The notes beneath the pieces were generated by a model that did not search any database, was not told the origin of the DNA, and was given only the letters and a program-made list of their open reading frames with translations. Of a stretch of 64,000 nt of DNA, positions 14,592 to 56,027 are shown piece after piece. The DNA comes from Robertmurraya dakarensis (GTDB lineage Bacteria > Bacillota > Bacilli > Bacillales > Cytobacillaceae), in assembly GCF_900156875.1 (NCBI RefSeq), contig NZ_LT707409.1, forward strand, positions 3,094,909-3,158,908, read 5' to 3'. The number at the start of each line of letters is the position of its first letter. Position 1 is the first letter of the stretch. Both the position numbers and the translations under genes were made by a program.

Positions 14592-14623
14592 CATTCGACA
14601 AATTCCGGGTCGTCACAGGGACG
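14592..14623 (+). repeat. Dispersed REP-like repeat 1 (short form)
   Basis: ATTCGACAAATT block, then CCGGGTCGTC and core ACAGG between GTC and GAC. Overlaps the 3' end of the ADP-ribosylglycohydrolase gene and provides its stop codon. Confidence 0.85.
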
Positions 14624-15485
14624 CAAATTGCAACTGATTCGAGATCTCCACCAAAGTGTCCTTTTCTAGTAAAGCTTCACGGTATTCTTTTGGGATTCCT
14701 TCATATCCAAAGGCTAATCCCGCTAACCCTCCTGCAATCGCTCCTACGGTATCGCTGTCTTCTCCTTCATTTGCTGCCCCAACGACTACATCTAAGAAGG
14801 TTTCACTGCTCATCAGCCAATACAGCACCCATTGCATCGTATGAACGACGTAACCATCAGGGAGGCAGGTTGGTTTCTTCCCCTCAAGAACCGTTTCATA
14901 AATGGTCCCTTTCACTTCTTGAGCAATCGCTTCACTTAAATCTCCGCCATTTAAGACTTTATAAGCAATTCGGTTATAAATTAGACAGGCTTCAGCTGCT
15001 TTGTTATCATAATGAGTCATTTCGGATTGCCGTTCTGTGATTTCTTCAACTTTTGTGAGACTTTTGTACGAAAGTGCCACCGGCAAACACCTCATCAAAG
15101 TCCCATTTCCAGCAGAAAGACCGCCTAAATACTTCTCATGCGCCAGCTTAGCCGCCGCAAACCAGTCACCATCATACAGTTCAAAAACGGTTCTAATAAT
15201 ATTTCCAATATCCTTAGGATTTGATTGATACCACTCCAGAAAATACTCGCCAATCGCAGAAATCGGGTCATCGGGATTCTTTATAATCCCCTTCGCAACA
15301 GCCAACGTCATTGCAGTATCATCCGTTGTCTCCCCTTTTTCCAGCTTCCACACCCCGCCGCCAACGATCTCAGTCAGCCTGCCATACTTCTCCTTAACTT
15401 CTTCCTTCGACAAAAATTCAGTCGTCCCACCCAACGCATCACCAATCGCCAAACCAAACAACGCACCTTTTATCCGATCCAACAT
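14613..15485 (-). CDS. ADP-ribosylglycohydrolase family protein
   Basis: About 290 aa, DraG/ARH fold. Metal-binding signatures are all present: GDALGGTTEF near the N terminus, ETTDDTAMT, GNGTLMR and EDSDTVGAIAGG. The family removes ADP-ribose from proteins, nucleic acids or small molecules using two Mg2+. Start is placed at the ATG of MLDRIKGALFG, preceded by GGAAGGGAG; an upstream in-frame ATG 17 codons earlier lacks a site. No DarT, macrodomain or toxin partner lies next to it. The last codons and the TGA (ending ASL) are supplied by the dispersed repeat at 14592-14623. Confidence 0.87.
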   Translation of the reverse strand: MLDRIKGALFGLAIGDALGGTTEFLSKEEVKEKYGRLTEIVGGGVWKLEKGETTDDTAMTLAVAKGIIKNPDDPISAIGEYFLEWYQSNPKDIGNIIRTVFELYDGDWFAAAKLAHEKYLGGLSAGNGTLMRCLPVALSYKSLTKVEEITERQSEMTHYDNKAAEACLIYNRIAYKVLNGGDLSEAIAQEVKGTIYETVLEGKKPTCLPDGYVVHTMQWVLYWLMSSETFLDVVVGAANEGEDSDTVGAIAGGLAGLAFGYEGIPKEYREALLEKDTLVEISNQLQFASL

Positions 15486-15535
15486 CAAAACACTCCCTTC
15501 CTCACTAATATCCCCAACACAAAACATAATTTTCA

Positions 15536-15574
15536 TTCGACATAATTCGAGCTATCTCGGGTCGTCACAGTGAC
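15536..15574 (+). repeat. Dispersed REP-like repeat 2 (short form)
   Basis: TTCGACATAATTCGAG block, CGGGTCGTC, core ACAGT. Lies between the hydrolase leader and the terminator of the nuclease gene. Confidence 0.85.
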
Positions 15575-15582
15575 AAATAATA

Positions 15583-15620
15583 AAACAACCACTTGCAGCA
15601 TTGGGCAAGCGGTTGTTTTT
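15583..15620 (-). terminator. Terminator of nuclease/nucleotidase operon
   Basis: Minus strand AAAAACAACCGCTTGC, loop, GCAAGTGGTTGTTTTA. It lies 40 bp after the nuclease stop codon. Confidence 0.75.
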
Positions 15621-15660
15621 GTGATAGTTCAGGTCAGGTATCATTCTATTGATTAGTTTA

Positions 15661-20745: not shown

Positions 20746-24981
<4,236 letters not shown>

Positions 24982-25172: not shown

Positions 25173-25223
25173 GTTTCGACAAAATCGGTCAAAACCCAAC
25201 AAAACCCGGGGCGTCCCTGTGAC
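25173..25223 (+). repeat. Dispersed REP-like repeat 3 (short form, extended)
   Basis: TTTCGACAAAATCGG, an inserted CAAAACC duplication, then CGGGGCGTC and core CCTGT. Lies between the divergent nucleotidase and phosphoesterase genes. Confidence 0.75.
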
Positions 25224-25304: not shown

Positions 25305-26042
25305 GTGAGATTTGCAGTGATTACAGATGTGCATGGAAATGCGGCCGCTTTAAAGGCGGTACTTGCTGAGATTGATAGAAGGAAAGATGTTGATCATATT
25401 TTTTCACTAGGAGATATGGTTGGGATAGGGCCGGATACGAATGAGGTATTAGAAACTTTGTTTTCGAAGGATAATCTCTCGATGATCACGGGTAACCATG
25501 ATGAAGCGGTCCTTGCTTTGCATCAGGGACAGGAATACCCTCAACGATATAAATTTATACGTGAGCATCATAGCTGGATTGCTGATCGTATTGATCCTGC
25601 ATTTGTTTCGCATATCGAAAAAATGCCGCGTACCATCCAAAAGAAAATAAATGGCCATTCTTTGTTTTTTATACATTATCATATTGATCCCCACAAACTA
25701 AACAAGCACATCAGCAATGATCCATTCAGCGATATCGTTGATCCTAGTCTTGAGAACATGCAGCAAATTTTTAAGGATCATCAAGATGATCTCATCTGCT
25801 TCGGCCATCATCACCCGATCCATTTCTTTCAAGACAGCCGCTCCATTTATTTAAATGCCGGCGCATTAGGCTGCAGCCATGACCCCATTGCAACATACGC
25901 CATCGTAACAGTTCACGATAACAAAATTGAGGTTAGCCTTGAAAAAACAACCTATGACAAAGCCGCCTTCCTAGAATCTTTTCACAAATTAAAAGTCCCG
26001 GGCAGAGAATTTCTACTAAAAGCCTTTCATGGACATTCCTAA
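25305..26042 (+). CDS. Metallophosphoesterase, YfcE/calcineurin-like
   Basis: 245 aa. The motifs DVHGN, GDMVGIGP, GNHDE, HYH and GHHH are those of a two-metal calcineurin-like phosphoesterase. I choose the GTG at 25305 (product starting MRFAVITDVHGN) because AAAGGAG is eight bases upstream; the GTG nine bases earlier overlaps the site itself. The substrate is unknown: relatives hydrolyse small phosphodiesters or phosphatases of nucleotides. No signal peptide, so cytosolic. It is transcribed away from the nucleotidase and ends in a hairpin at 26049-26076. Confidence 0.87.
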   Translation: MRFAVITDVHGNAAALKAVLAEIDRRKDVDHIFSLGDMVGIGPDTNEVLETLFSKDNLSMITGNHDEAVLALHQGQEYPQRYKFIREHHSWIADRIDPAFVSHIEKMPRTIQKKINGHSLFFIHYHIDPHKLNKHISNDPFSDIVDPSLENMQQIFKDHQDDLICFGHHHPIHFFQDSRSIYLNAGALGCSHDPIATYAIVTVHDNKIEVSLEKTTYDKAAFLESFHKLKVPGREFLLKAFHGHS

Positions 26043-26048
26043 CTCAAT

Positions 26049-26076
26049 TAAGCCAACAATATGCTGTTGGCTTAAT
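26049..26076 (+). terminator. Terminator after metallophosphoesterase
   Basis: AAGCCAACA, six-base loop, TGTTGGCTT, then AATT. The T-tail is short; it could serve both strands. Confidence 0.6.
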
Positions 26077-26688
26077 TCATGAACTCCCATCGTGGAACAA
26101 TCCTGTGGAACAAGGTTTTCCGACATATTTCGGGTCGTCCCTGCGTCTATCAAGTTCAGCACAATACTCCCCCCTCTTCTCTTCTGCTGTTCCTTGATAA
26201 AAGTCGAGAATATAATCAGTATTCATAAAGTCAGGCTGTTCAAAACCGCTGTCTTTAAACAAATAATAGCTGCTCCATGAATACCCAGATGGATGGTTAA
26301 CCATTCTAGCTTCAACCGGATTTAAGTGGATATACCAGCTAACCGCAAGGATTCCCCTTCTATCATCAACCCGATCACCACGGAAACGTTTCTCAAACAC
26401 ATGACCGGTTAATCCATACCGATTATTATAATAATTCGCATATCGCTTGTTTATCAGGGACATTACTTTTGAAAGAGGAACTTCGGGAGAACGCATGAGT
26501 AGATGGAAGTGATTGGTCATCAGACAATACGCGGCAATTTCAAATGGATATTTCTCATAAACTTGCTTAAGGATATGAAAAAATGCTAGAAAATCAGCAT
26601 CCTCCCAAAAAAGCGGATCACGCCGATTCCCCCGGCTAACAACATGATAAAACCGGTCCGGAATCCATAGTCTTCTCTTATACGGCAT
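26077..26688 (-). CDS. REP-associated tyrosine transposase (RAYT, Y1_Tnp family)
   Basis: 203 aa. IS200-like HUH transposase domain: the metal-binding pair is in TNHFHLLMRS, and candidate nucleophile tyrosines lie in INKRYANYYNNRYG, followed by the typical HVFEKRFRG and WYIHLNPVEARM stretches. RAYTs are single-copy, domesticated relatives of IS200/IS605 transposases that act on short palindromic REP sequences rather than on insertion-sequence ends; no terminal repeats flank this gene. The last about 22 codons (from RRRDDPKYVG to the stop) are read through the dispersed repeat at 26091-26145, so the conserved domain ends before it. In this window it is the only intact transposase and the natural candidate to mobilise the 15 dispersed repeats. 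Confidence 0.88.
   Translation of the reverse strand: MPYKRRLWIPDRFYHVVSRGNRRDPLFWEDADFLAFFHILKQVYEKYPFEIAAYCLMTNHFHLLMRSPEVPLSKVMSLINKRYANYYNNRYGLTGHVFEKRFRGDRVDDRRGILAVSWYIHLNPVEARMVNHPSGYSWSSYYLFKDSGFEQPDFMNTDYILDFYQGTAEEKRGEYCAELDRRRDDPKYVGKPCSTGLFHDGSS
26091..26145 (+). repeat. Dispersed REP-like repeat 4 (composite)
   Basis: Contains both the GTGGAACA pair of the long form and the TTCCGACATATTT block of the short form, then CGGGTCGTC and a variant core CCTGC ending GTC. Lies inside the 3' end of the RAYT gene and encodes its last residues. Confidence 0.8.
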
Positions 26689-26926
26689 AAATTTCCCTAC
26701 CTTTATATGAATATATTTTCATAACAACATTTCAACATTTCTTGCATATATACTACAGGGAATCACCTCCTTAATAAGGCAGATGGGTACGGAAGAAAGG
26801 AAAGGTTAGCAGGCGGCAAAACGAATAGGAAATAAAGTGGCGTGGCAAGATGGAAAGTGAGAGATTGAAGCCATATCACACATTGAAAATTCGACAAATT
26901 CTTCATAAATCCTTCTAAATCCACAC
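26689..26926. other. Intergenic region upstream of RAYT gene
   Basis: Holds the RAYT leader. Short frames here on the minus strand have no ribosome site and look random. A partial short-form block (ATTCGACAAATT at about 26888) is present without the rest of the dispersed repeat. Confidence 0.45.
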
Positions 26927-26960
26927 AAAAAAAAAGAGTCAGTGAATACACACTGAACTC
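26927..26960 (-). terminator. Terminator of the DUF368 gene
   Basis: Minus strand GAGTTCAGTG, TGTATT loop, CACTGACTC, then nine Ts. It lies after repeat 5, about 90 bp past the stop codon. Confidence 0.8.
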
Positions 26961-27008
26961 CTCTATCCTTAACTTCCCTTAAACCCCAAATCCCGCACGC
27001 ACCCACTC

Positions 27009-28135: not shown

Positions 28136-28172
28136 ATTCCAAAGCCTATCTAAAACACATCTATTGAACCCT

Positions 28173-42537: not shown

Positions 42538-42563
42538 TTTTCATAGATTCTATTTTTTTGCAC

Positions 42564-42601: not shown

Positions 42602-42617
42602 TATGAAAGTCTTAAAT

Positions 42618-44147: not shown

Positions 44148-44161
44148 TTTTATCGCTCTCC

Positions 44162-44725
44162 TTAGATTTTACCTACAAGATCAAGGCTTGGCTTAAGAGT
44201 TTCTCCGCCTTCTTGCCATTTAGCTGGGCAAACTTCACCTGGATTGTTGCGTACGTATTGAGCTGCTTTGATTTTGTTTACAAGAATGCTTGCGTCACGG
44301 CCGATTCCGCCAGCGTTGATTTCAAGAGCTTGTACAACTCCGTCTGGATCGATGATGAAAGTTCCACGGTCAGCAACACCATCTTCTTCGATTAGAACGT
44401 CGAAGTTACGAGAAATCACGTGAGAAGGATCCCCGATCATTGTATAAGTGATTTTGCCGATTGCTTCTGAAGAATCATGCCATGCTTTATGAACGAAATG
44501 AGTATCAGTTGAAACTGAGTATACTTCACAGCCAAGGCTCTTTAATTCTTCATATTGGTTTTGAAGATCTTCAAGTTCAGTTGGGCAAACGAAAGTAAAG
44601 TCTGCAGGGTAGAAACAAACAACACTCCATTGACCTTTAAAATTTTGTTCTGAAACTTCTACAAATTCACCGTTTTTGTAAGCTTGTGCTTTAAATGGTT
44701 GTACTTCTTTACCGATTAATGACAT
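44162..44725 (-). CDS. ahpC: Alkyl hydroperoxide reductase subunit C (peroxiredoxin)
   Basis: 187 aa 2-Cys peroxiredoxin. The peroxidatic Cys is in [14 protein letters not shown] and the resolving Cys in GEVCPAKW near the C terminus. It reduces H2O2, alkyl hydroperoxides and peroxynitrite, and is re-reduced by AhpF. First gene of ahpCF; two PerR-box-like sequences lie about 120-150 bp upstream. Confidence 0.98.
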
Positions 44726-44846
44726 AATAAAATTCCTCCAATATGTAATATTTAAATATTATAGAAAGTGAAACATTTGGTCGGTTCTTTTGTTTCTTTT
44801 AAGGAAAACAATTATAGGCAGCCGGCCATATAACCCGCTCACTTAA

Positions 44847-44878
44847 CTATAATAATTATTAATTTATAATTATTATCA
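44847..44878. promoter_or_regulatory. Two adjacent PerR-box-like operators upstream of ahpC
   Basis: Against the consensus TTATAATNATTATAA, 44864-44878 matches 14 of 15 and 44847-44861 matches 13 of 15. PerR represses ahpCF in Bacillus until peroxide oxidises its metal site. Confidence 0.75.
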
Positions 44879-45110
44879 TATAACCTAAACTATTTGTCAA
44901 CTAATTATACAATTATCACTTTCGTAAAAAATTATCAAATAGTTTGACCTATTGTAACAAAATATACTTATTTAAGTGTAGAATGCGTTTCAAGAAGTTC
45001 AGTTCAGCAGGCAGACATCATTCTCAATACCCTTCCCTCCTTCTCAAAAAAACTTCCTATTATCACCCTCTATCAGTATTGCGCACGGTCATGAATTTAA
45101 TACCAATCCC
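44879..45110. other. Intergenic region between ahpC promoter region and lactate-oxidase terminator
   Basis: No frame with a start site and no hairpin that I can support. Confidence 0.5.
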
Positions 45111-45144
45111 AAAAAAAGAAAGCACGGTATCCCCCATGCCTTCC
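45111..45144 (-). terminator. Terminator of the lactate-oxidase-like gene
   Basis: Minus strand AAGGCATGG, loop, CCGTGCTTT, then CTTTTTTT; lies beyond repeat 11. Confidence 0.65.
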
Positions 45145-45158
45145 TACTATCATACCTC

Positions 45159-45209
45159 CGTGAAACAATTTCCATTGTGAAACAAGATTTATCGGGTCGT
45201 CACAGTGAC
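45159..45209 (+). repeat. Dispersed REP-like repeat 11 (long form)
   Basis: CGTGAAACA, spacer, TGTGAAACAAGATTTATC, GGGTCGTC, core ACAGT. Encodes the final VTVTTR and stop of the oxidase gene. Confidence 0.9.
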
Positions 45210-46325
45210 CCTCTGCGATAAGTCCGCTATACCCGATAGAGCAAGTGATACTTCGGTTTCCTGCACAAATCGTTCGAGCACTTTCTCTACGCCTTGTTGT
45301 CCGTGGACTGCTAATCCATACAGAAATGGGCGGCCAATTAGCACAGCATCTGCGCCCAATGCCAAGGCTTTAACTGCATCAATCCCACGGCGTACTCCAC
45401 TATCTAATAGAACAGGAATTTTCCCATCGACCGCCTCCACAATCCCTGGCAGCGCATCAATCGAAGCAATCACCCCATCAAGCTGCCGGCCGCCATGATT
45501 GGAGACAATAATCCCATCCACTCCATAAGATAAAGCCGTTTTTGCATCATCCTGATGTAATATCCCTTTAATCAACACAGGCAGTTTTGTCCGTTTCTTC
45601 ACCTCAGCGACATCCTTCCATGTTAAAGAAGGGTGCTGAATATTTTCCAGGATCCCCGCAACAATACTTTCCAGATCATGATTCTCCAACGACTTCATGA
45701 ATACTGGATCGCTCACATAGTTCCCTTTTCCATACCCCAATGACAACGGCGAAAACTGATTACGCATATCCGTCTCTCTCCACCCTGCCATCGTCGTATC
45801 AACCGTAATCACAATCGCTTCATAGCCCGCTTTTTCTGCTCGTTCTACCATGCTGTAAGAAAGCTCAGGATTCACAGTGGAAAAATAAAGCTGAAACCAA
45901 TTACAGCCATTTGGCGCGGCTTCCGCAATTTCTTCTAATGAATACGCAGATACCGTACTAACAATAAACGGAACGCCCATAGCCTCTGCCGCTTTAGCCG
46001 TGGCCAGTTCCCCTTCCTCATGGGCAAGAGTCTGCATGCCGATCGGCGATAAAAGAAATGGCGTTTTGTATCGGCGACCAAAAAGATTAACACTCATATC
46101 TACATTAGATACATCATTAAGCATTCTCGGAACAATCGCCCATTTCGAAAAAGCCTCTTCGTTTCTTTTCGCCGTTTCATTTCTCCCCGCTCCCGTACTT
46201 GCATATCCATAACCGCCCGCATGCATTACCTCGGAAGCCTTTTGTTCCCATTCTTCAAATGAAAGTGGAAAATCCGTTTCCTTACTTATGTCCTTCATTA
46301 GTATATCTCGATTCGCAACAGTCAT
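45189..46325 (-). CDS. FMN-dependent alpha-hydroxy-acid oxidase (lactate 2-monooxygenase/oxidase-like)
   Basis: 378 aa. TIM-barrel FMN enzyme: PFLLSPIGMQ, WFQLYFS, ITVDTTMAGWRETDMRN, PVLIKGI, the catalytic His in SNHGGRQLDG, LLDSGVRRG and IGRPFLYG. The family oxidises L-2-hydroxy acids such as lactate, glycolate or mandelate; the TMAGWRETD insertion is closer to lactate 2-monooxygenase-type members. It is followed upstream by YjiH and an aminotransferase on the same strand, suggesting a catabolic group, but terminators separate them. The last six residues and stop derive from dispersed repeat 11. Confidence 0.87.
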   Translation of the reverse strand: MTVANRDILMKDISKETDFPLSFEEWEQKASEVMHAGGYGYASTGAGRNETAKRNEEAFSKWAIVPRMLNDVSNVDMSVNLFGRRYKTPFLLSPIGMQTLAHEEGELATAKAAEAMGVPFIVSTVSAYSLEEIAEAAPNGCNWFQLYFSTVNPELSYSMVERAEKAGYEAIVITVDTTMAGWRETDMRNQFSPLSLGYGKGNYVSDPVFMKSLENHDLESIVAGILENIQHPSLTWKDVAEVKKRTKLPVLIKGILHQDDAKTALSYGVDGIIVSNHGGRQLDGVIASIDALPGIVEAVDGKIPVLLDSGVRRGIDAVKALALGADAVLIGRPFLYGLAVHGQQGVEKVLERFVQETEVSLALSGIADLSQRVTVTTR

Positions 46326-46409
46326 CTCAAATGCCTTCTTTCCTTTAAAATAGTGGGAGGACCTATATATGGAAAAAAGAGCACCTCAAAAGGGCACTCT
46401 CTTCCAATT

Positions 46410-46445
46410 AAAAAAAGAAACACGAGAACCGCCCCCACGTTTCTT
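46410..46445 (-). terminator. Terminator of the YjiH-family gene
   Basis: Minus strand AAGAAAC, GC-rich loop, GTTTCTT, then TTTTT. It abuts repeat 12. A second weaker hairpin (AGAGTGCC/GGTGCTCT plus T-run) lies at about 46376-46402. Confidence 0.65.
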
Positions 46446-46446
46446 C

Positions 46447-46497
46447 CGTGAAACAATTCTCATCGTGAAACAAGATTATTCGGGTCGTCACAGTGAC
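46447..46497 (+). repeat. Dispersed REP-like repeat 12 (long form)
   Basis: CGTGAAACA, spacer, CGTGAAACAAGATTATTC, GGGTCGTC, core ACAGT. Nine bases from the YjiH stop codon. Confidence 0.92.
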
Positions 46498-46506
46498 AAG
46501 AAAACT

Positions 46507-47886
46507 TTAAAAAACAAACAAATGTGCAATCAATACAATGATTGGCAATGTAATAATTGTTCTTTCGATAAATATAATGAATAGCTCACCGAAGCTTAAC
46601 GGAATGTTTGAACGCAGAATCAAGATCCCGATTTCTGACATGTAGATTAATTGTGTTAAAGAAAGTCCTGCGACAATGAAACGTGTTAATTCACTTTCAA
46701 TCCCGCTCCCGATCACTGGCGGCAAGAACATGTCCGCAAATCCAACCAGCATCGTCTTCGCAGCCGCACCCGCTTCAGGCACCTGCATCCATTCTAAAAT
46801 CGGAACAAATGGATAAGAAATGATATCAAAAACAGGTGTATATTCAGCAACAATTAACGCAAGGGCTCCCAAACTCATAACAAGCGGGATCAACCCTAAC
46901 CAAATATCTAAAATCGTCTCAACCCCATCTGAGAGCAGCTTCTTCGCACTTGGCGCAGTTCTCGCCTTGTTCAGTGCTTGCTCCCAACCCCACTTCACTT
47001 TCGATACGCCTTCTGGAATCGTTTCATCAATTTTCTGACCAACAGGTTCATAATAAGTATCCGGTTTTCTTGATAGCGGCGGAATTCTCGGCATAATAAC
47101 CGCTGCCACCACACACGCTACGGAAACGGTTAAGTAAAATGGAATGAACATATGTCCCAGTCCAACGACATTCGCCACAATTAAACTAAAGGCAATCGAG
47201 GCGATTGAAAAAGTGGTCGCAATAACCGCAGCTTCCCTTTTTGTATAATAACCTTCATCGTATTGTTTCGTTGTCACCAACACCCCAACAGTTCCTGCCC
47301 CCATCCAGGAAGCCAGTGTGTCAATGGAAGAACGCCCTGGCAGCGTAAATAACGGCCGCATGATCTTCTGGAAAAGGGCTCCAATAAATTCCATCAATCC
47401 AAACTCTACTAATAAAGGCAGTAGAATTCCCGCAAATAAGAACCATGTCATTAACACTGGAGCCAAATCATAAAGCACGACTCCGCCTGTATTACGGCTC
47501 CAAATAAACTCTGGTCCCACTTCAAAAATCGTCAGGATCCCCACCAAGAACCCGAATAATCTGGCTGCTAAACCGAACATCCCAATATCAAATAACCCTT
47601 TAAAAAACTTACTCTCCATAATAAAGCTCGGCTTAAAAATCTTTGTCACGATTGTTCCAGCGGTTGATAAACCCAAAATAAAGATAATAAATGCCGGAAT
47701 ATAAGCACTAAAATAACCGTTCAAAAGTGATGCCAAAATGCCGACACCAATAGTAATTTCCCCGTTGAATTTGATTGGAACGAGAAATAACAATACCCCA
47801 ATCAACGAAGGAATCAAAAACTTTAACTGGCCGCCACTCGACGCGGCCGTTTCACTCTCCTGTTTGACCCTTGCTTGTGCCTCCAC
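46507..47886 (-). CDS. YjiH-family transporter with nucleoside-recognition (Gate) domain
   Basis: 459 aa, about ten hydrophobic segments. The Gate-like stretches SWMGAGTVGVLVTTKQYDEG and MLVGFADMFLPPVIGSGIES identify the YjiH branch of nucleoside-recognition membrane proteins. Substrate unproven. It begins 28 bp after the aminotransferase gene on the same strand, so the two should form an operon, suggesting transport of a compound handled by that enzyme. Confidence 0.8.
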   Translation of the reverse strand: MEAQARVKQESETAASSGGQLKFLIPSLIGVLLFLVPIKFNGEITIGVGILASLLNGYFSAYIPAFIIFILGLSTAGTIVTKIFKPSFIMESKFFKGLFDIGMFGLAARLFGFLVGILTIFEVGPEFIWSRNTGGVVLYDLAPVLMTWFLFAGILLPLLVEFGLMEFIGALFQKIMRPLFTLPGRSSIDTLASWMGAGTVGVLVTTKQYDEGYYTKREAAVIATTFSIASIAFSLIVANVVGLGHMFIPFYLTVSVACVVAAVIMPRIPPLSRKPDTYYEPVGQKIDETIPEGVSKVKWGWEQALNKARTAPSAKKLLSDGVETILDIWLGLIPLVMSLGALALIVAEYTPVFDIISYPFVPILEWMQVPEAGAAAKTMLVGFADMFLPPVIGSGIESELTRFIVAGLSLTQLIYMSEIGILILRSNIPLSFGELFIIFIERTIITLPIIVLIAHLFVF

Positions 47887-47914
47887 ACCATTTCCCCCTT
47901 TTTAAAAAACCCCT

Positions 47915-49228
47915 CTATCCTCTAATCCCCAATTCTGCTTCATACTCAGTTAGCGCCTCATCCAGCAATGCAATTCCTCTATCTAAGTTCTCTTTGTCAA
48001 CATTTAACGGCGGCATCATCCGGATAACCTCGCCTTTATTTCCACTTAGGTAAAAAATCACGCCTTTATGCAGGCATTTTTCAAGAATATTCATAAGTCC
48101 TTCGCCATTTGGTGCACCAGTTACAGGTTGAACAATCTCAATCCCCAGCATCATGCCAATGCCTCGCACCGTCCCCATCACGGGGTGCTTTTCTTTTAGG
48201 TCAATAAGCTTTCTAAGCGCGTATTCACCTAGATTTCTAGCATTTTCAACCATGCCCTCTTCTTTTAGAACATCAATCGTTGCACAAGCTGCTGCACAGG
48301 CAATTGGATTTCCTCCAAAAGTGGTACTATGACTGCCAATCGACCATTGCTCCATCAGTTCTTTAGAAGCAACCGTTGCACTTAACGGCAAGCCGCTTGC
48401 AATTCCCTTCGCAATCGCCATGATATCTGGCGTCACTCCAAAGCGACTCGCTGCAAACCAATCACCCGTACGTCCAAACCCCGTTTGCACTTCATCAAAA
48501 ATTAATAGAATGCCGTGCATATCGCAGATTTCACGTATTTTTTGCAGCCAAGCTCTCGGCGGGATGACATAGCCGCCTTCCCCAAGCACTGGTTCTAAAA
48601 TAACCGCTGCCACTTCGTCCGGAGCCACTTGATGATTAAATAGTTTTTCAAAGTCTTTTTCTACGTGCTCTGACCAATACACATCATGGTCTAATCCGTC
48701 GGGGGTTTCCGTAATTTGTGCGTATGGCAGCTGGTACGTCATCCCCGCTCCGACAGGCAAGCTTCTTCTGTACTTGCTTTTCGAAGTTGTCAGGCTGAGC
48801 GCTCCCATTGTTCTTCCATGAAATCCGCCAAGGAAAGATACAACATAAGGTCTTCCTGTCACATGTCTAGCGAGCTTCACTGCCCCTTCAATCGCCTCAG
48901 CGCCGCTATTTCCAAAGAAAAAGCAGTCTAAGGATTCTGGTAAAATTGTCTGCAGTTTCTTTGCTAAATTAATAATAGATTCATAGTTGATAATCCCGAT
49001 CGGTCCATGAACCAAAGAATCCACTTGATCCTTGATCGCAGCAACTACCTTCGGATGGCGATGCCCAGTATTTTCAGTCGCAATCCCTGAAGTAAAATCC
49101 AAGTACTTCTTCCCATCAACCCCGATGTAAAATAACCCTTCTGCTTTAGCTACTGGCAGGTTCGGAAAATCCTTCGCCATTGTGGGTGCCAATAAGCCTT
49201 CTTCATTAATGGTGTTCCAATCTATCAT
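47915..49228 (-). CDS. Class-III PLP aminotransferase (4-aminobutyrate aminotransferase-like)
   Basis: 437 aa from the ATG of [11 protein letters not shown], which is preceded by AGGAGA; a longer frame upstream has no site. Motifs: [44 protein letters not shown], and the PLP Lys in [12 protein letters not shown]. Such enzymes transaminate GABA, beta-alanine, taurine or related omega-amino acids with 2-oxoglutarate or pyruvate. Divergent from a LysR regulator and followed by the YjiH transporter. Confidence 0.87.
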
Positions 49229-49598
49229 AATGCCATCTCCTAATATCCAATGAATGTTTAATGAATTTTCTCTCAATATGCATGATTAGTCAATTTCAAT
49301 CCATAAGAAATATTAATAGTAAATATCGGTAATTAGGGAGGTGATCCGTTGTGATGACTGCTTTTTTTTAAAAAAACAGGCTAAACACATGCTCGATACT
49401 AGAAAAGTCAGGCAAAAACCATTAAGAAAAATTATGAATCATTATGGATAAAGTTGTATATTTATGAATCTCATGCAGTCACTCTTCCAAATCCTTCTAT
49501 ATGAAAAGGCCCGCCAATTGCTATGCTATAATATTAAGAGATTATCTAATTTGTACGTATTTTAAATTCAGAATTGTTTTTCAAAAAGAGGTGATGAC
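49229..49598. other. Divergent regulatory region, aminotransferase / LysR
   Basis: 370 bp expected to hold the LysR operator. A perfect-looking GGGAGGTGATCC ribosome site at about 49337 precedes only a six-codon frame (MMTAFF) in a T/A-run, so either a leader peptide or chance. No clear T-N11-A dyad was settled by eye. Confidence 0.4.
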
Positions 49599-50498
49599 AT
49601 GGAATTACGTAATTTAAAAACCTTTCAAGTCGTGGCAGAGGAATTGAATCTCACGAAGGCGGCAAAAAGATTAGGCTATACTCAGCCTACTCTCACATTA
49701 CAACTACAAGCACTTGAAAAAGAGCTTAATCACACCCTGCTCACTAGAATTGGAAAGAAGACGCTGCTAACCGCTGCCGGGCAAAAACTGAAAGGGCATG
49801 TCGACCAATTATTTGACCTCATCGATGAGATGGAAAAAGATATGGAAGAATTGCATGGACCTGCCGGGGTGCTGAACGTGGCGGCATCTGAGTATTACTG
49901 CAGGCATCATCTATCACCGATAATTAGCAAATATATGGAAATGTACAGTAACGTGCGGGTCAACCTTTTGCCACTTAATAGCGTTCACGGCATCCAAAGC
50001 GTGAAGGACCGTGTCGCCGACATTGCGATTATTGCCAGCGATTGCAATGAAATGGATATTAAACAAACCTTTTTAGAAGAAGAAAAGACGTTTTTAGTTG
50101 TGTCATCAGGGATAAGCAAGATCAAAAGCCTGGAAGAGATTTATAGTCAGTATCCCTTTATCTCCTACGATAAAGATTGCAGTTTCAGCAGTATCATTGA
50201 CCGCTATTTTAAGAGCAATGAACTTCAGCCACAGTCCATGATTGTAGTGGGCGGCAGCGACGAGACGATCAAAAGAGCGGTCTTAAACGGTACCGGCTAT
50301 GCTATTTTAGGGGAAAATATCATGAAGAATGAATTGGAAGATGGATCGATCACCATCCTGCAACAGGTGGATGAACCGATTATTACTTCTATGATCAATC
50401 TAAAGGTGCGTGCGGAAGAACCTAATATACAGACTTTTAATGAGTTTATTCGCGGGGCTTGGAAACATGGAGAAAGTTCCCTTGTTTCCTTGCTTTAA
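49599..50498 (+). CDS. LysR-family transcriptional regulator
   Basis: 299 aa. N-terminal winged helix-turn-helix (residues 1-60, NLKTFQVVAEELNLTKAAKRLG followed by YTQPTLTLQLQALEKEL) and a C-terminal periplasmic-binding-like effector domain (about 90-290). Transcribed away from the aminotransferase-YjiH operon, the standard arrangement for a LysR activator of the neighbouring genes. The ligand is probably the transported substrate or its derivative. GAGGTGATGAC lies before the ATG. Terminator at 50521-50560. Confidence 0.92.
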   Translation: MELRNLKTFQVVAEELNLTKAAKRLGYTQPTLTLQLQALEKELNHTLLTRIGKKTLLTAAGQKLKGHVDQLFDLIDEMEKDMEELHGPAGVLNVAASEYYCRHHLSPIISKYMEMYSNVRVNLLPLNSVHGIQSVKDRVADIAIIASDCNEMDIKQTFLEEEKTFLVVSSGISKIKSLEEIYSQYPFISYDKDCSFSSIIDRYFKSNELQPQSMIVVGGSDETIKRAVLNGTGYAILGENIMKNELEDGSITILQQVDEPIITSMINLKVRAEEPNIQTFNEFIRGAWKHGESSLVSLL

Positions 50499-50520
50499 CC
50501 TTAGTATTAAAAAGTTACCT

Positions 50521-50560
50521 AGGAACTACCAGTCATGAGATGGGCAGGTAGTTCCTATTT
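50521..50560 (+). terminator. Terminator of the LysR gene
   Basis: AGGAACTACC, loop, GGTAGTTCCT, then ATTTTATT. Confidence 0.85.
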
Positions 50561-50717
50561 TATTAAAATCTTATCTATTAAATGGGTTGTAATTTACAGA
50601 TACCGGAGCGAGAGGCAGCCCCTGAAATATTGATTGGTAGAAGAATATATAAATAGAAGGGGTTACGAAGTACAGGAGATGAATTTTTCACAATTAATGG
50701 CGTACGTTAAACTGCGC

Positions 50718-51122
50718 TTAGCTTAATTGTCTTTTGATATTGCCAATCTCCCTTTCATTTCTTGCTGTTTTCTCCCAAATAAAATCCTGGTCATTTTCAA
50801 TAGCCTTAAAGCGATCTACTATTTCTTTATGGCGTTCCTCCCCTTTGGTTTCTATCTCTGGGAGTTTTATTTGCATCTCTTGTTGGATTTGCTTCATTTC
50901 TTGCTGGTCTCGTTTCATTTCTTGTAGATCCTGCTTCATTTCTTGTTGGTCTCGTTTCATTTCTTGTAGATCCTGCTTCATTTCTTGTTGGTCTCGCTTC
51001 ATTTCTCGTAGACTTGTCCTCAGATCTTGTTGATCTTTCTTCATGCTATGCTGCTCAGCTTGAATTCCCCCTACCATCCCTATTAATTGTGCCAGCATAT
51101 CCTCAATTTTTTCACCATTCAT
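50718..51122 (-). CDS. Coiled-coil protein with 14-residue repeats
   Basis: 134 aa. It starts MNGEKIEDMLAQLIGMVGGI, then a long charged coiled coil with tandem 14-residue units of the type EMKRDQQEMKQDLQ (about residues 39-85), and ends EKTARNEREIGNIKRQLS. AGGTGAGG is found before the ATG. No catalytic domain, signal peptide or membrane span. Proteins of this kind are common in Bacillus and unassigned. The units are coded by near-identical 42-bp repeats. Confidence 0.7.
   Translation of the reverse strand: MNGEKIEDMLAQLIGMVGGIQAEQHSMKKDQQDLRTSLREMKRDQQEMKQDLQEMKRDQQEMKQDLQEMKRDQQEMKQIQQEMQIKLPEIETKGEERHKEIVDRFKAIENDQDFIWEKTARNEREIGNIKRQLS
50891..51012 (-). repeat. 42-bp coding tandem repeat, about 2.9 units
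   Basis: Alternating TTCATTTCTTGTTGGTCTCG and TTCATTTCTTGTAGATCCTG blocks (coding-strand complement) with only one or two changes between units; in frame, so unit number can change without breaking the gene. Confidence 0.85.
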
Positions 51123-51277
51123 TTTCCCTCACCTCCTTTTCACATATTATATATCGAATAACTCATTTTGGATATCTAGTTTTTTCTCAGCGAAAGGCAG
51201 GGACAGTTCCATTACCAACCCCGTAATCTCACTTCCCTCCCCTCGTCAGAAAGCATGGTTCCCACCCAAACTTCCTT

Positions 51278-51325
51278 CTGTGGAACATTCTTGTGAAACA
51301 AGATTATTCGGGTCGTCACAGTGAC
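51278..51325 (+). repeat. Dispersed REP-like repeat 13 (long form)
   Basis: TGTGGAACA, spacer, TGTGAAACAAGATTATTC, GGGTCGTC, core ACAGT. Supplies the last residues (RSL) and stop of the EAL gene. Confidence 0.92.
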
Positions 51326-52071
51326 CGAAGTTCGCTAAATAGGTTTCCGTCTTTGATTTTCTCTGGTTTTCCTAATAGATACCCCTGTGCAACAGGAACT
51401 TGTAAAGTCTTAGCGATTGCTAAATCCATCTCTTGTTCTAAGCCTTCTAAAATCAAGATCATCCGTTGCTTGGAATATTGCACTAAAAGCGAAAGCAATT
51501 GTTGTTTATCTTTTGACGTAAATAATTCTCTAGAAAAATACTGATCTACTTTAATAATATCCGGGGAAAACTCAACGATTTTCTGTAGTCCAGCAGCTCC
51601 CTTACCAATATCATCTAATGCAATGATGAAATTTTTTTCTTTTAAAAACTTGATCTTCTCTTTTAATTCTTGAATTCTCCAAATATGTTCCTCATTTTTA
51701 GTCTCGTTTAATTCAAATACGATTCTTCCTATTGCTTGTGGATATTGAATAAGCAGCTGTTCAATAAACGATTCGAACTGATCATTCAACAACGTAGATG
51801 GGAATATATTGATAAACAATAATTCTGAAAGCGATTGTTCAAAAGGAAAACTGCTTATTGCCTTTGAAATAGACAATGTATCTAGTTCATATAAACTTCC
51901 TTCTCGCCTAGCTTCATCAAATATGGCTTCAATATTTTGATTCTGAGCCCCCTCAGTAAATCTTAATAGAGCTTCATACCCGTATACTTTCCAGTTATGC
52001 AACTGCCATAATGGTTGATAAGCATGCTCTACTCGTTCATAACGTACTTGATTTATGAAATTGATATTCAT
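51316..52071 (-). CDS. EAL-domain c-di-GMP phosphodiesterase, third paralogue
   Basis: 251 aa EAL domain alone. E of YEALLRF, N of FINIFP, E of FELNET, DD of LDDIGKGAAGL, K of IKVD, E of LEGLE and Q of AQGY are present. Loop 6 (DDIGKG) is closer to the canonical DDFGTG than in the two other EAL proteins of the window, so this is the best candidate for an ordinary phosphodiesterase. AAGGAAGGGAG precedes the ATG. It lies 23 bp after a small zinc-ribbon gene, so probably a two-gene operon. C terminus completed by dispersed repeat 13. Confidence 0.85.
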   Translation of the reverse strand: MNINFINQVRYERVEHAYQPLWQLHNWKVYGYEALLRFTEGAQNQNIEAIFDEARREGSLYELDTLSISKAISSFPFEQSLSELLFINIFPSTLLNDQFESFIEQLLIQYPQAIGRIVFELNETKNEEHIWRIQELKEKIKFLKEKNFIIALDDIGKGAAGLQKIVEFSPDIIKVDQYFSRELFTSKDKQQLLSLLVQYSKQRMILILEGLEQEMDLAIAKTLQVPVAQGYLLGKPEKIKDGNLFSELRSL

Positions 52072-52094
52072 GTGCCCGCCACTCCCTTCCTTAT

Positions 52095-52292
52095 TTACGA
52101 AAACTTTTTAATACCCAATGCTTTACATCTAGGACAAGTAATTGTATTTGCAGGTTTAAATTTAATCTTCTTAAAATCACTCCGCACAAAAGTAGGAAAA
52201 ACATTATATTTGAAACCACAATTACAAGTGTTACGGTCTTTTACAACATGTGTTAAATTGTCTCCTTTATCAAATACTGTTGGATAAAACAT
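52095..52292 (-). CDS. Small zinc-ribbon-like protein
   Basis: 65 aa. Two cysteine pairs, CNCGF near residue 24 and CPRCKALG near residue 55, could bind one zinc. GGGGAAAGG is before the ATG. Located directly upstream of and on the same strand as the EAL gene (23 bp gap). Function unknown; a regulatory or nucleic-acid-binding role is possible. Confidence 0.6.
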   Translation of the reverse strand: MFYPTVFDKGDNLTHVVKDRNTCNCGFKYNVFPTFVRSDFKKIKFKPANTITCPRCKALGIKKFS

Positions 52293-52732
52293 ACCTTTCC
52301 CCTTCTTTCATATTTGGATAATTTACTAGTTTCTCTGAGCTGTTCTAAATCTTCTAAATTTATACTATTATTATGTTGGAAACCAGATGGAAAAGAAATC
52401 AGCTAGTACTCTTATTCTCACCATTTAAGAGGATTAGGAACCTGTTCCTATTTCATTCTGAGCTAATTTATTTTTGGCTCTTTAGCTCCCCATACATCCG
52501 CATTCTAAATTTGTAAGGTATACATATATTTTGATAAGGGTTGTTTCAAAAGGATTCTCTTTATTAAACAGGAGAATCCTTTCTTTAACTTTATTGTTTT
52601 CTGAATATTCAAATAACTATAGAAAGGATGTGTTACCGACATTTCCTAACTAGTCAGCCGCTAACAAAGTCACTTAAGCAACAAGAGCAATCCGCGTGAA
52701 CTATTTTTCAAAAAATAAAGGAGTGATGACGT
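52293..52732. other. Divergent region, zinc-ribbon/EAL operon and MFS gene
   Basis: 440 bp. Contains a hairpin AAAGGATTCTC, loop, GAGAATCCTTT, TCTTT at about 52549-52582 that could be a terminator or attenuator in the MFS leader; otherwise no frame or motif that I can support. Confidence 0.5.
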
Positions 52733-54079
52733 TTGACTGTTAAAAATGAATCCCCGCCAAGAAAAGGATTTTGGACTTATCTTTCCTATAAGGAATTAGA
52801 TCAGTATCCTACGCCAGGCTTGCGTTTGTGGCTGATGTTGATCCTTGTTTTTGCATGGACGGTGGAGCAGTTTGAAAAAGCAAAGATGGCTCCCGTGTTG
52901 TCGTATATCATGGAGGATTTTGATGTTAGTCTGACCACATGGGGAGTTGTTGCCACCATTGCGACCATTCTTTCTGCCCTTTCTGTCTATATCTTTGGGT
53001 ATTTTTCAGATCTTTATGGTAGAAAAAAGTTAATGATCTGGCCCATGTTTATCTATGTGTTCCTGGCAATTTTGACCGTGATGGCACAAAACTTTATGAC
53101 GGTTGCGGTATTTTATGTCCTGGGACTTGTCATCATATCAGGACTCTACCCCGTTGTCGCAGCCGCTTTCCGGGATGTGTCTCCTAGGAGCGGAAGAGCC
53201 ATTTCCTACTCTTGGCTATCATTAGCATTTGTGCTTGGTTCTCTGACATCCAACGGTGCCGCGTCCATGACAATCCCCATCTGGCCGGGATGGAGGCCGC
53301 AATACTGGATCGCTGCTGGAGTAGCATTAATTATGGTTATCATCGTTGGGTTCTTGTATAAAGACTTATCAGAAAAAGTACGCGGTAAGGTCTACAAGGA
53401 TCAAACAGAAGGCTTAAAAAGCGAAACAGTCAAACAAGAAGTTAGTGTCGAGGAAGCGAAGAAAAGCGGGAATTTGATTTACAAGGATTGGAGAATTTGG
53501 TTCCTCAACATGGCGCTATTATTCTGGGGATGCGTCTATGCGTCCATTATGGCCTACGTTCCACTCTACTTCACACAATTTTTTGGAATTGAACCTGCAA
53601 GAGCCGCCTCTTTAACAAACGTATTTTGGTTTGTCGCTATTTTCTCTATCTTTTTCGGTGGTTGGCTTTCAGATAAACTGCAATTGAGAAAAATCGTTTC
53701 CGCCTTAGGAGCAATCGGGACAGGGGCCATGCTCATTATTTTGTCAGTATTGCCAGCAAATACTTCGGAAACCATCCTTATTCTGATCTGGGGATTGTCT
53801 GGTATTACGATGGGCTTCATCTACCCCGCATGGTGTGCCTTGCTTTCAGAAAACGCCGAATCAATCAGTTCATTTGGAGTAGGAAGAGCCTTTGCCATTT
53901 CTGGAATATTCAGCGCCGTTGGGGGCGTATTCCTAAACCTGGGACTTCCAGTAATCGTAGAAAACTGGGGCTGGTCCGCATGGATGTTAACATCCGGTTT
54001 CTGCTGTTTCGCCGTTGCTTTATTTGTTTCGTTTGGGAGAGGACCTTGGTTCATCCCAAAGCAAAATAAATCGAGTTGA
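52733..54079 (+). CDS. MFS transporter
   Basis: 448 aa with about 12 membrane segments and a central cytosolic loop (about residues 215-250). The MFS signature between helices 2 and 3 is GYFSDLYGRKK, with the matching GGWLSDKLQLRK between helices 8 and 9. TTG start after AAAGGAG at good spacing; the nearby ATG leads to an immediate stop. Substrate unknown; proteins with this layout often carry organic acids or sugars. Confidence 0.87.
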   Translation: MTVKNESPPRKGFWTYLSYKELDQYPTPGLRLWLMLILVFAWTVEQFEKAKMAPVLSYIMEDFDVSLTTWGVVATIATILSALSVYIFGYFSDLYGRKKLMIWPMFIYVFLAILTVMAQNFMTVAVFYVLGLVIISGLYPVVAAAFRDVSPRSGRAISYSWLSLAFVLGSLTSNGAASMTIPIWPGWRPQYWIAAGVALIMVIIVGFLYKDLSEKVRGKVYKDQTEGLKSETVKQEVSVEEAKKSGNLIYKDWRIWFLNMALLFWGCVYASIMAYVPLYFTQFFGIEPARAASLTNVFWFVAIFSIFFGGWLSDKLQLRKIVSALGAIGTGAMLIILSVLPANTSETILILIWGLSGITMGFIYPAWCALLSENAESISSFGVGRAFAISGIFSAVGGVFLNLGLPVIVENWGWSAWMLTSGFCCFAVALFVSFGRGPWFIPKQNKSS

Positions 54080-54093
54080 GTGCAGATACTTAG

Positions 54094-54132
54094 GCCTGGT
54101 GTCCTTGAAAAAGGTCATCAGGCTTCATTTTT
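54094..54132 (+). terminator. Terminator of MFS gene
   Basis: GCCTGGTG, loop, CATCAGGC, TTCATTTTT; a second small hairpin (TTTTTGCT/AAGCAAAAA) follows to 54153. Confidence 0.8.
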
Positions 54133-54159
54133 GCTGCATTAAAAAGCAAAAACATCCCC

Positions 54160-54211
54160 CTGTGAAACATTACTATTCATGAAACAAGATTATTCGGGTC
54201 GTCCCTGTGAC
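54160..54211 (+). repeat. Dispersed REP-like repeat 14 (long form)
   Basis: TGTGAAACA, spacer, CATGAAACAAGATTATTC, GGGTCGTC, core CCTGT. Lies between the MFS terminator and copC. Confidence 0.92.
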
Positions 54212-54290
54212 ATTTCATACATATTTCACATCTATTTTATAAGATAACCAATATGTTAATACTAACTTAAGCAATGTTTAGGAGGAATAC

Positions 54291-54884
54291 ATGATGAAAC
54301 GTATATTTACCGCCACTGCAGCAGCTTTATTGGCCATGTCGATTTCGAACAGCGCATTTGCTCATTCGCATGTTACAGGAACCATTCCAGCAGATGGTGA
54401 GGTTGTAACAGAAGAAGTAAATGAGATTGTTCTGAATTTTGACGGTCAAATTGAACAAGGCAGCTTTATCGATGTTACGACGTCAGAAGGACAAGAAGTT
54501 GAAATACAAGAAATAATCATTGGTGAGGGCACTTTAACAGGCACAGTAGCTGAGCCCCTGCCAAACGATGAATATGAAGTTAACTGGAATATTATTAGTG
54601 CGGATGGCCACCCATTAGAAGGAGGATTCTCCTTTACAGTCAACGCGCCAGTACCTGAAAATGTTGAAGAGGAAACCGTGGAGCCTACAGAAGCAGCCGA
54701 GCCAGCGACAGAAGATCAAGAAGAAGCTCCAACCGAAAAGGCGAATGAAGTTGAAGAATCGAATGAAGTCGAAGAAGCAAATAATGCTGAAGAAGCTTCC
54801 TCTTCGACGACAGTCTTACTCATCGTTGTTTTAGTTGTCATTGCAGCCGGCAGTTTCTTCTTCGTTCGTAAAAGAAAGAAGTAA
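54291..54884 (+). CDS. copC: CopC-domain protein with acidic linker and C-terminal membrane anchor
   Basis: 197 aa. A signal peptide ends FAHSHV, so the mature N-terminal His of CopC-type proteins is present, and the domain ends with ISADGHPLEGGFSF, the second Cu-ligand region. After about residue 120 comes a Glu/Ala-rich linker and a C-terminal transmembrane helix followed by RKRKK. CopC binds copper outside the membrane; here it is membrane-tethered, not free. AGGAGGAAT precedes ATGATG. Next gene, copD, starts three bases after the stop. Confidence 0.87.
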   Translation: MMKRIFTATAAALLAMSISNSAFAHSHVTGTIPADGEVVTEEVNEIVLNFDGQIEQGSFIDVTTSEGQEVEIQEIIIGEGTLTGTVAEPLPNDEYEVNWNIISADGHPLEGGFSFTVNAPVPENVEEETVEPTEAAEPATEDQEEAPTEKANEVEESNEVEEANNAEEASSSTTVLLIVVLVVIAAGSFFFVRKRKK

Positions 54885-54887
54885 TCT

Positions 54888-55979
54888 ATGGAAGCAATCG
54901 TTATGATAAGTCAGGCACTTTTGTATGTATGCTTTTCGGTCTTAGCAGGAAGTTTTATACTCATGCTGGTCCCGAACAACGTTCGTCCTGAGGTCAAGAT
55001 TCCAAAGCGCTTATTGTTAATTAGCGCTGGTACCCTGCCCATCTTCGCATTTTTTCCAGTGCTTGATATTACCCTATTTATCGCTCCACGGTTAGGACTT
55101 GTGGAATCATTTAAACTTGTGTTGACCACCTATACCGTTGGAACGGCTTGGAACTTTACACTCCTTGGTTCGGTTGTGTTGATACTATTAATCTCCATAG
55201 TGAAAGAAACGGAAAAAAGCCGTTTCGCCTATCTAGGGACATTGCTGACACTGGGGTTAATGTTGACCGTTGCTTGGTCGAGCCATGCCGGCAGCATCGA
55301 TCCAACCATGGGCTTAATCAGCCACTTTCTTCATTTAACAGCGGTAAGTGTTTGGGTGGGAATTTTATTGATGATTGGTTGGTGTGCTGTTAATCATCAA
55401 CATTGGCTTACATTCTTAAGCTGGTTCTCAGCCGTTGCCATTGGCTGTCTAGCTGCCGCTGTTCTTAGCGGTGTGCTGCTGATGGATGTAATGGTGGATG
55501 GGTATATTAGTTCTTGGGTGGGATCATATGGTCAAGGCTTATTAATCAAACATTTATTCCTGGTGCCGCTTCTTTTCTATGCATTAGTGAATGGCGTGAT
55601 TGTTAAATATAAACTTTCAAAAGATGCGGCATTCAATCCGATCCCTTGGATTCGTGTAGAAGGTTTTATCTTGCTGACTATCTTTATGATTACCGCTGCA
55701 TTCACGCAACAATCACCACCACATGGAAATAATTTAACGACTGAAGCCATCTCACCTTTGTTCAATCTATTTCACGGCAGCACGATTGAACCCGGCCAAT
55801 CCATTGGCTTTGTTGTGAACATGTACACCGTAGGATTCTTTTTCCTTTCCATCTTACTGTTTGGCGTACTAATACTATCGTTTTTAAAAAAAGCATCGAT
55901 ACTTCTATCTTTTCTAATAAGCTGCTTCCTAGTATCGAGTATCTACATCATGTTAATGGTCACCATGGTGATTCGCTAA
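54888..55979 (+). CDS. copD: CopD-domain membrane protein
   Basis: 363 aa with about eight or nine transmembrane helices. The central HAGSIDPTMGLISHFLHLTAVSVWVGILL and later His residues (CAVNHQHW) match the CopD domain for copper handling in the membrane. In B. subtilis the same functions are fused in YcnJ; here copC and copD are separate but adjacent, in operon spacing. Role is copper uptake or homeostasis by family; direction of transport cannot be stated. Confidence 0.83.
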   Translation: MEAIVMISQALLYVCFSVLAGSFILMLVPNNVRPEVKIPKRLLLISAGTLPIFAFFPVLDITLFIAPRLGLVESFKLVLTTYTVGTAWNFTLLGSVVLILLISIVKETEKSRFAYLGTLLTLGLMLTVAWSSHAGSIDPTMGLISHFLHLTAVSVWVGILLMIGWCAVNHQHWLTFLSWFSAVAIGCLAAAVLSGVLLMDVMVDGYISSWVGSYGQGLLIKHLFLVPLLFYALVNGVIVKYKLSKDAAFNPIPWIRVEGFILLTIFMITAAFTQQSPPHGNNLTTEAISPLFNLFHGSTIEPGQSIGFVVNMYTVGFFFLSILLFGVLILSFLKKASILLSFLISCFLVSSIYIMLMVTMVIR

Positions 55980-55996
55980 CCCAGAATCCATATCCC

Positions 55997-56027
55997 AATT
56001 CGACATTATTCGGGTCGTCCCTGTGAC
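55997..56027 (+). repeat. Dispersed REP-like repeat 15 (short form)
   Basis: AATTCGACATTATT, CGGGTCGTC, core CCTGT. Eighteen bases after the copD stop codon. Confidence 0.88.

Follow-up and report, generated by a model that had tools for sequence, protein, structure and literature searches.

Why should a repeat that lies among genes on both strands keep a single direction, copy after copy? The question is raised by a stretch of 64,000 nucleotides from Robertmurraya dakarensis (contig NZ_LT707409.1, positions 3,094,909 to 3,158,908; the whole stretch is called the window), in which fifteen copies of a short palindromic element point the same way between positions 14592 and 56027. The copies are probably repetitive extragenic palindromes (REPs) that belong, together with a REP-associated tyrosine transposase (RAYT), to a Bacillaceae-type REP/RAYT system, and specifically to a direct-repeat variant in which the REPs would bound mobile segments. 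This reading draws on what was observed of the enzyme class, of mostly one-way clusters antiparallel to the RAYT gene, of a border at the 3´ side of the repeat, of shared units bounded by REPs and of one empty site.

All fifteen copies of the original prediction were located as claimed, every one on the plus strand, and the claimed absence of the inverse was confirmed (GGGTCGTC occurs 11 times on the plus strand and GACGACCC not at all). With up to four mismatches, the 17-mer CGGGTCGTCACAGTGAC matches 15 times on the plus strand and never on the minus strand of the window; a single-strand search of ten first-order Markov sequences found no more than one match in any of them. Fifteen one-way copies in the window are far above chance. 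The repeat is composed of a head, TCGGG or CCGGG (CGAG in one copy), and a palindrome GTC-N5-GAC (ending GTC in one copy). The proposed GTC-5-GAC core is thus present, and is more completely described as a palindrome of 5 bp centered on a single base; it is fully paired in 8/15 copies. Heads of the type TG(A/G)AACA are found in 11/15 copies and of the type T(T/C)CGACA in 5/15, copy 26091 carrying both. Short heads characterize the copies at 14592-14622 (TTCGACA), 15536-15574, 25173-25223 (with a long spacer) and 55997-56027; both heads are present at 26091-26147; and the long form is found at 27009-27055, 28173-28220, 33315-33365, 35433-35484, 36021-36067, 40974-41025, 45159-45209, 46447-46497, 51278-51325 and 54160-54211. 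The copies had been placed between genes, which holds for 14 of the 15 midpoints (outside the open reading frames, ORFs, that were used), but seven copies overlap some ORF. Five hold the stop codon of a minus-strand ORF: 14592 (ORF 14613-15536), 27009 (ORF 27046-27888, VCA0040-like), 36021 (ORF 36046-37965, SLH), 45159 (ORF 45189-46325, FMN_dh) and 51278 (ORF 51316-52071, EAL). Copy 26091 lies entirely within the 3´ end of the RAYT ORF, copy 15536 touches an ORF start, and copies 28173 and 46447 are located 5 bp and 9 bp off the stops of ORFs 28226-28582 and 46507-47886, respectively. The copies at 54160 and 55997 form the left and right borders of a copC-copD segment.

The label 'REP-like' proved correct, more literally than had been claimed, because a RAYT gene that the original prediction had missed sits within the array. 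It encodes a protein of 203 amino acids (26077-26688, minus strand) that matches Pfam Y1_Tnp (E 6.3e-13) and scores 72.5 bits with NCBIfam NF047646 (REP_Tyr_transpos), under the cut-off of 80. Its only PDB match at E ≤0.1 is TnpAREP (4er8, E 7e-4). The protein contains HFH at position 60 and YIHLNP at position 119, and the combination of HuH with Y---NP is given as the signature of class 2 RAYTs in passages of PMC6006769. Copies 25173, 26091 and 27009 surround the gene, all as direct repeats, and since a Y1 transposase gene lies among them, the window is a REP/RAYT locus; a palindromic repeat with 49 matches in the genome thus stands beside a rayt gene. Three RAYTs are encoded in the window genome, all at 3.07-3.19 Mb.

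The constant orientation had been suggested to follow the replichore. A sequence model of the copies, run on the window genome, gave 48 matches on contig C11 and one doubtful match (E 0.22) on the 1.7-Mb contig C10; 47 of these 49 were used for orientation counts, after removal of the C10 match and of the reverse side of a symmetric copy at 3218761. From GC skew and gene direction, sampled in 20 stretches, the terminus is placed near 1.15 Mb of C11 and the origin in the interval that separates the C11 end from the C10 start. The right arm bears 18 plus and 2 minus copies (plus being the leading direction), and the left arm bears 25 plus and 2 minus copies (plus being the lagging direction). 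The single orientation therefore holds in the window but not genome-wide, where 4 of the 47 counted C11 copies are on the minus strand, and a dependence on the replichore is not borne out: just 20/47 copies lie in the leading direction, and whole clusters disagree. The sign of the local skew (3-kb flanks, 30 copies) equals that of the arm for 11/12 right and 14/18 left copies. Neighboring copies at most 60 kb apart agree in direction in 39/40 cases, although much of this agreement is expected anyway with 43 plus to 4 minus copies overall. Genome G010 offers a fairer test: with four symmetric copies (8 of 62 matches) set aside, neighbors agree in 35/46 cases, compared with 25.8 after shuffling (p 0.0017). 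On the right arm of G010 the clusters are divided 5:0, 6:6 and 1:8, and on its left arm the division is 25:3, so that the first and last right-arm clusters, the latter of which reaches the terminus, are opposed. Orientation is mostly set by the local cluster and the nearby RAYT gene, not by the replichore.

The relation to the RAYT gene was seen across related genomes. P0001-like RAYTs were detected at E 1e-10 in 109/151 family genomes; the window-type core was found in 32/193 genomes and gave a match in none of six other genomes of the same genus. A set of 70 RAYT loci was compiled, mostly from Neobacillus, Mesobacillus, Anoxybacillus, Peribacillus and similar genera, plus two distant metagenome bins (L208 and L209), and one regular expression detected repeats at 53 of them. 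These repeats share the heads (TTCGACA or TGTGAAACAAGATT), followed by TTCGGG, and vary in the palindrome, which reads GTCACWGTGAC, GTGACAGGCAC or GTGCCTGGCAC. In this set, 133/142 copies are antiparallel to the RAYT gene. By locus, 46 have antiparallel copies only, two parallel only and five mixed copies, and 17/70 are without a copy; a sign test on loci (46 versus 2) gives p 4e-12. Five further genomes show the same arrangement for 27/28 copies near a RAYT, with 3 more copies lying far off. The array of genome G102 comprises 54 matches over 180 kb, 52 of them on the plus strand, and its RAYT genes are on the minus strand at 763 and 886 kb, one inside the array and one 6 kb past its edge. Over the 70 loci, the RAYT gene is on the leading strand in 50, on the lagging strand in 5 and on an unclear strand in 15. 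The antiparallel and lagging directions can be separated in the clusters of the window genome, in those of G010 and at locus L194, and these cases oppose a strand rule.

A second gene accompanies the transposase at most loci. A whole or partial match to the YifB/ComM family is located within 400 bp of the RAYT gene on the same strand in 49/70 loci, before it in 37 and after it in 12, all 12 of which are from Anoxybacillus. By reading of the list, these 49 comprise 36 single near-full-length matches, 4 in two pieces and 9 partial ones; among the other loci, 19 are without ComM, one has it slightly further off or broken, and one lacks a RAYT match. On TIGR00368, whose cut-off is 362 bits, two examples reach 473 and 441 bits. 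Among 60 cross-genus locus pairs listed, the shared DNA is often just the ComM-RAYT gene pair. The one strong ComM match of the window genome adjoins its third RAYT and contains four internal stops.

If REPs are the ends of moving DNA, matches between unrelated places should break off at them, and homology between loci often does so at the 3´ side of the REP. Among RAYT loci (the overlapping pair L181/L183 excluded), 147/770 match ends are no more than 60 nt away from a REP, compared with 35.5 expected from random positions. The two sides of the match were then counted with the 70 loci set to one direction, together with the G102 array and the window, and with matches above 99.5% identity and 1,500 bp excluded. 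On the right, 114/808 ends fall no further than 5 nt from the palindrome's 3´ edge, with a peak in the 0-4 nt bin past it (83). A REP is present at both ends, in at least one partner, of 14 matches, two of which are whole ComM-RAYT units (L146/L150, 3,592 bp, 93%; L141/L185, 2,418 bp, 88%). Within G102, the blocks 812875-813273 and 814845-815244 (91%) have a common end no more than 3 nt away from the edge of the REP. A second copy of 822604-824071 is present at 861895-863331 (95%); this match begins where a REP head has its left edge and ends elsewhere than at a REP.

One empty site was found. Two genes are neighbors in G096, and G102 has 1,038 extra bases at the same place, composed of a REP, a 221-aa ORF and a REP. 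The right-hand gene now ends in EILGECFVSSQ instead of EILGEKYIIAKK, with the REP supplying the last residues and the stop codon; on reading of the sequence, the old 3´ end (PIITKK plus stop) survives on the far side. The array thus grew here by a cargo-bearing insertion into a gene end. Chaining of matches had produced 146 candidate sites, many caused by the repeats themselves, of which this one was examined closely; G102 and G080, tried as a syntenic pair, were found not to be syntenic. In the window, the region 36200-56190 is not colinear in the six same-genus genomes, which show scattered matches (the longest about 2.1 kb) and, in G005 and G006, its genes on different contigs. A single REP-free control at 2.20-2.22 Mb is colinear in the same six genomes, on one contig in three and on two contigs in three.

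Other repeats and small elements were encountered at these loci. A block of ~390 bp with a REP at its end is found again in different genera, at some loci in two copies (L150 3785-4175, with relatives in L166, L201, L202, L200, L161 and L169); it contains an ORF of ~50 aa and a AACCACCC/GGGTGGTT stem, and we take it to resemble a type I toxin-antitoxin unit. At L173, REP-like matches at 1703-1740 and 2603-2640 bound two small ORFs (1703-2640) that resemble, by eye, a Phd/RelE-type toxin-antitoxin pair. Other hairpin repeats (GTGAAACGGCAGAACC...GGTGTTTCAC and TGGTCAGACCCC) are also found at borders of duplicated blocks in G102 (C1 823960-825160). The same contig bears a different, self-complementary repeat of ~190-400 bp in many copies on both strands (815001-815194, which is L237 1-194, and 833546-833947), present in at least 5/7 genomes of that genus. 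Two group I introns (L202 7254-7506 and 8286-8639) lie near the Oceanobacillus halophilus RAYT locus.

A mechanism for REP-bounded mobility can be proposed. RAYT, as a Y1 HUH enzyme, would cut single-stranded DNA just 3´ of the REP hairpin and on one strand only. Because all cuts would share this polarity, any stretch between REPs could leave as a single strand; the DNA between successive REPs, ranging from a bare REP up to the RAYT-ComM operon, would be released as a strand ending in one REP. Reinsertion of this strand at a nearby site, frequently the 3´ end of a gene, would preserve the direction, and one-way arrays would arise in this way. The ComM/YifB-type ATPase, presumably of the branch-migration helicase family, may help to join the strand into duplex DNA.

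The repeats are closely associated with gene ends. A minus-strand gene to the right of a REP often reads into the palindrome and stops at the TGA of the palindrome. When open frames that run into the palindrome and span 100 codons or more were sorted by frame, G102 (55 copies) gave 14 in the TGA frame against 1 and 0 in the two remaining frames; the corresponding counts are 4, 1 and 1 in the window (15 copies) and 5, 0 and 0 in other stretches of the window genome (25 copies). For the two array genomes pooled, 23/26 are in the TGA frame (binomial p 9e-9), and the TGA is intact in 21/23. The bias is absent in the RAYT-locus set (2:1:3 for 26 copies of the GTC type and 3:3:6 for 115 copies of the GTG type), and the GTG-type hairpin is without a TGA on this strand. 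The frame bias can be explained by selection for short tails after insertion, and it can also be explained by a long history of the genes next to REPs that are interchangeable. The idea that REPs insert precisely at native stop codons was considered and not upheld in two array genes compared with relatives: one is 4 residues shorter than three relatives, and the other has 3 residues where two relatives have their final 12 to 15. Intrinsic terminators are predicted on the minus strand at 26939-26956, 28104-28135, 40942-40970 and 45116-45145, within about 55 bp to the left of REPs. Predicted terminators thus sit just left of 4/8 copies in the interval 26000-45900, and these copies look as though they had settled beside existing terminators. 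The REP palindrome itself, considered as a terminator, is among none of the 21 terminator-like sites in that interval (16.7 expected).

This setting at gene ends could also be read as the mark of a regulatory 3´ element, such as a terminator, an mRNA stabilizer or a protein-binding site. The stop codons in five copies and the neighboring terminators are consistent with it, and the short head TTCGACA is the reverse complement of a Spo0A box. However, T(T/C)CGACA is missing from 10/15 copies, the palindrome does not occur in the terminator-like sites, the direction is fixed despite flanking genes on both strands, and the core is patchily distributed, which makes a regulatory element improbable. 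Another reading of the fixed direction, a KOPS- or Chi-like motif of replication polarity that would indicate replichore direction, would account for one direction across 42 kb and for RAYT genes that are mostly on the leading strand. It is contradicted in both the window genome and G010: just 20/47 copies are in leading orientation, the two big clusters disagree, the 1.7-Mb contig C10 has one weak match and six same-genus genomes are without a core match; we consider it very improbable.

A closer rival accepts the REPs and the RAYT and questions the cargo. In ordinary REP spread, the transposase would mobilize nothing but the ~50-bp REP, which would settle near gene 3´ ends because insertion there is least harmful, and REP-ended shared segments would be produced not by the transposase but by later homologous recombination between repeats. 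REPs downstream of genes and concentrated near their RAYT are already known from passages of PMC3733652 and PMC2817692. The right-hand gene at the G096/G102 site, on reading of the sequence, retains its original 3´ end in displaced form, which is what a simple insertion would produce; the two shortened C-termini fit random insertion followed by selection; and the left borders are weak. On the other hand, the 1,038-bp insertion carries an ORF between its two REPs and 14 matches start and end at REPs. Recombination, moreover, should put borders anywhere in the repeat, in contrast to the concentration of right ends in the single bin past its 3´ edge. Ordinary spread is an unlikely, though serious, alternative.

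A number of observations weigh against REP-bounded mobile segments and a direction set by the RAYT. Left ends are weakly enriched (41/820 at 0 to 15 nt after the REP), and a REP is present in both partners at 0 of the 46 left-end cases listed. The REP-dense locus L184 is involved in 8 of the 14 two-ended matches, one recurring block of ~400 bp supplies many of the 114 right ends, so that these counts are not independent, and only 9/193 right ends of matches longer than 500 bp are at the REP edge. When stretches of the window genome were compared with themselves, just one of 589 matches (at least 80 bp) ended at a REP, so that evidence for moving segments from the window genome itself is slight. 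No excision event was observed, and DNA folding of six sequences was not significant (z -1.92 to +0.43). The antiparallel and lagging directions are nearly confounded, because the RAYT gene is leading in 50/55 clear loci. In the window genome, copies at 0.04-0.53 Mb have no RAYT nearby; the evenly divided cluster of G010 is at 1.2-1.5 Mb; and G156 is mixed (15 plus and 30 minus), with many symmetric copies. ComM is not found within 400 bp in 21/70 loci, nor beside the window RAYT.

Compared with gammaproteobacterial REP/RAYT systems (REPtrons, E. coli TnpAREP), the system described here has the same Y1 HUH enzyme type with HuH and Y---NP motifs, with weak similarity to 4er8, and the same short palindrome with an unpaired 5´ tag and location at gene 3´ ends. 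Accumulation of REPs near rayt has been described for three gammaproteobacteria and one betaproteobacterium (passages of PMC2817692 and PMC8266576), and strand-specific cutting is described for E. coli TnpAREP in part of PMC8266576. In contrast, the GT(A/G)G tag occurs in 0/15 copies in the 20 nt 5´ of the palindrome; according to passages of PMC6006769, it is likewise lacking in subclass 2.6 and class 3. Whereas rayt is flanked by two inverted REPs in the systems described in passages of PMC2817692, the window RAYT is flanked by direct REPs and 46/53 copy-bearing loci are antiparallel only. One-way arrays and a ComM/YifB neighbor in most loci are further differences. The CGTC-tagged REPs (Di Nocera 2013), which according to passages of PMC3733652 carry a terminal unpaired CGTC, form stems of 8-9 bp, occur mostly as head-to-head dimers and seem to lack a transposase of their own, resemble the window type in that CGTC is present at the start of its palindrome. 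Here the stem is 5 bp and includes the GTC, the direction is single, a RAYT is present and relatives read CGTG or GGTG; membership of the CGTC-tagged superfamily was rejected, since the 5-bp palindrome takes in the GTC and differs from an unpaired CGTC with an 8-9-bp stem. The combination of a Y1 transposase with secondary structures at the ends is shared with IS200/IS605 elements (passages of PMC6006769). Unlike these elements, the system has no fixed left or right end around the RAYT, and its repeats far outnumber the transposases (49 to 3 in the window genome).

Integron arrays, whose attC sites have the core GTTRRRY, resemble the REP array in several respects: hairpins that all point one way and lie at the 3´ ends of genes, a recombinase gene within the array, many unrelated genes and, as proposed here for the REPs, a single-strand logic. 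The REP array differs in having a Y1 HUH transposase instead of a tyrosine integrase and genes on both strands, with no single insertion site shown. GTTRRRY is found in 1/15 copies on either strand, which is chance-like, and no integrase domain turned up in a scan that covered 37 window ORFs, but neither the remaining window ORFs nor the genome beyond. A tentative extension, possible but doubtful, is that Bacillaceae-type bacteria possess an integron-like cassette system made of a Y1 RAYT and a ComM-type helicase, in which one-way REPs would serve as cassette sites, the genes between them, those of the transposase operon among them, would move single-stranded with one REP each, and array genes would have adapted to the hairpin stop. 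The window array would then probably be run down, because the ComM partner of its genome is broken. This extension overlaps with the REP/RAYT account of segment mobility.

Some further features of the window were recorded. The sole Rfam match is a c-di-GMP-I riboswitch at 33038-33143 on the minus strand (72 bits), not at any copy; it lies upstream of EAL, MCP, CheX and response-regulator genes within one inter-REP segment. Open frames of 772 to 820 aa on the plus strand (22443-24958) are opposite a collagen-repeat gene (20746-24981). Two minus-strand ORFs of 935 aa (3528-6335 and 7201-10008), whose starts are ~3.7 kb apart, are probably a tandem duplication.

REPs, RAYTs, their accumulation near rayt and strand-specific cutting by TnpAREP are already known. 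The original statement that no named element has this sequence is in line with a literature search with the repeat strings, which returned only animal or human-cell papers, as judged by title. Neither the pairing of RAYT with YifB/ComM nor a RAYT cassette system is reported in the titles or abstract starts listed by open-access literature searches, which is not proof of absence, and the terms Firmicutes, Bacill- and chelatase are absent from the main text of the survey PMC6006769. Within the literature searched, the Bacillaceae-type family, its direct REPs, one-way arrays without GT(A/G)G, the ComM partner, the cargo units and the use of the stop codon are apparently new. Compact one-way arrays that combine a REP, a RAYT, a candidate helper and clear borders make the cut site, the moving unit and the polarity readable from sequence and testable. 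If inter-REP segments do move as units, a Gram-positive group would own a gene-cassette platform built on an enzyme class unlike that of integrons.

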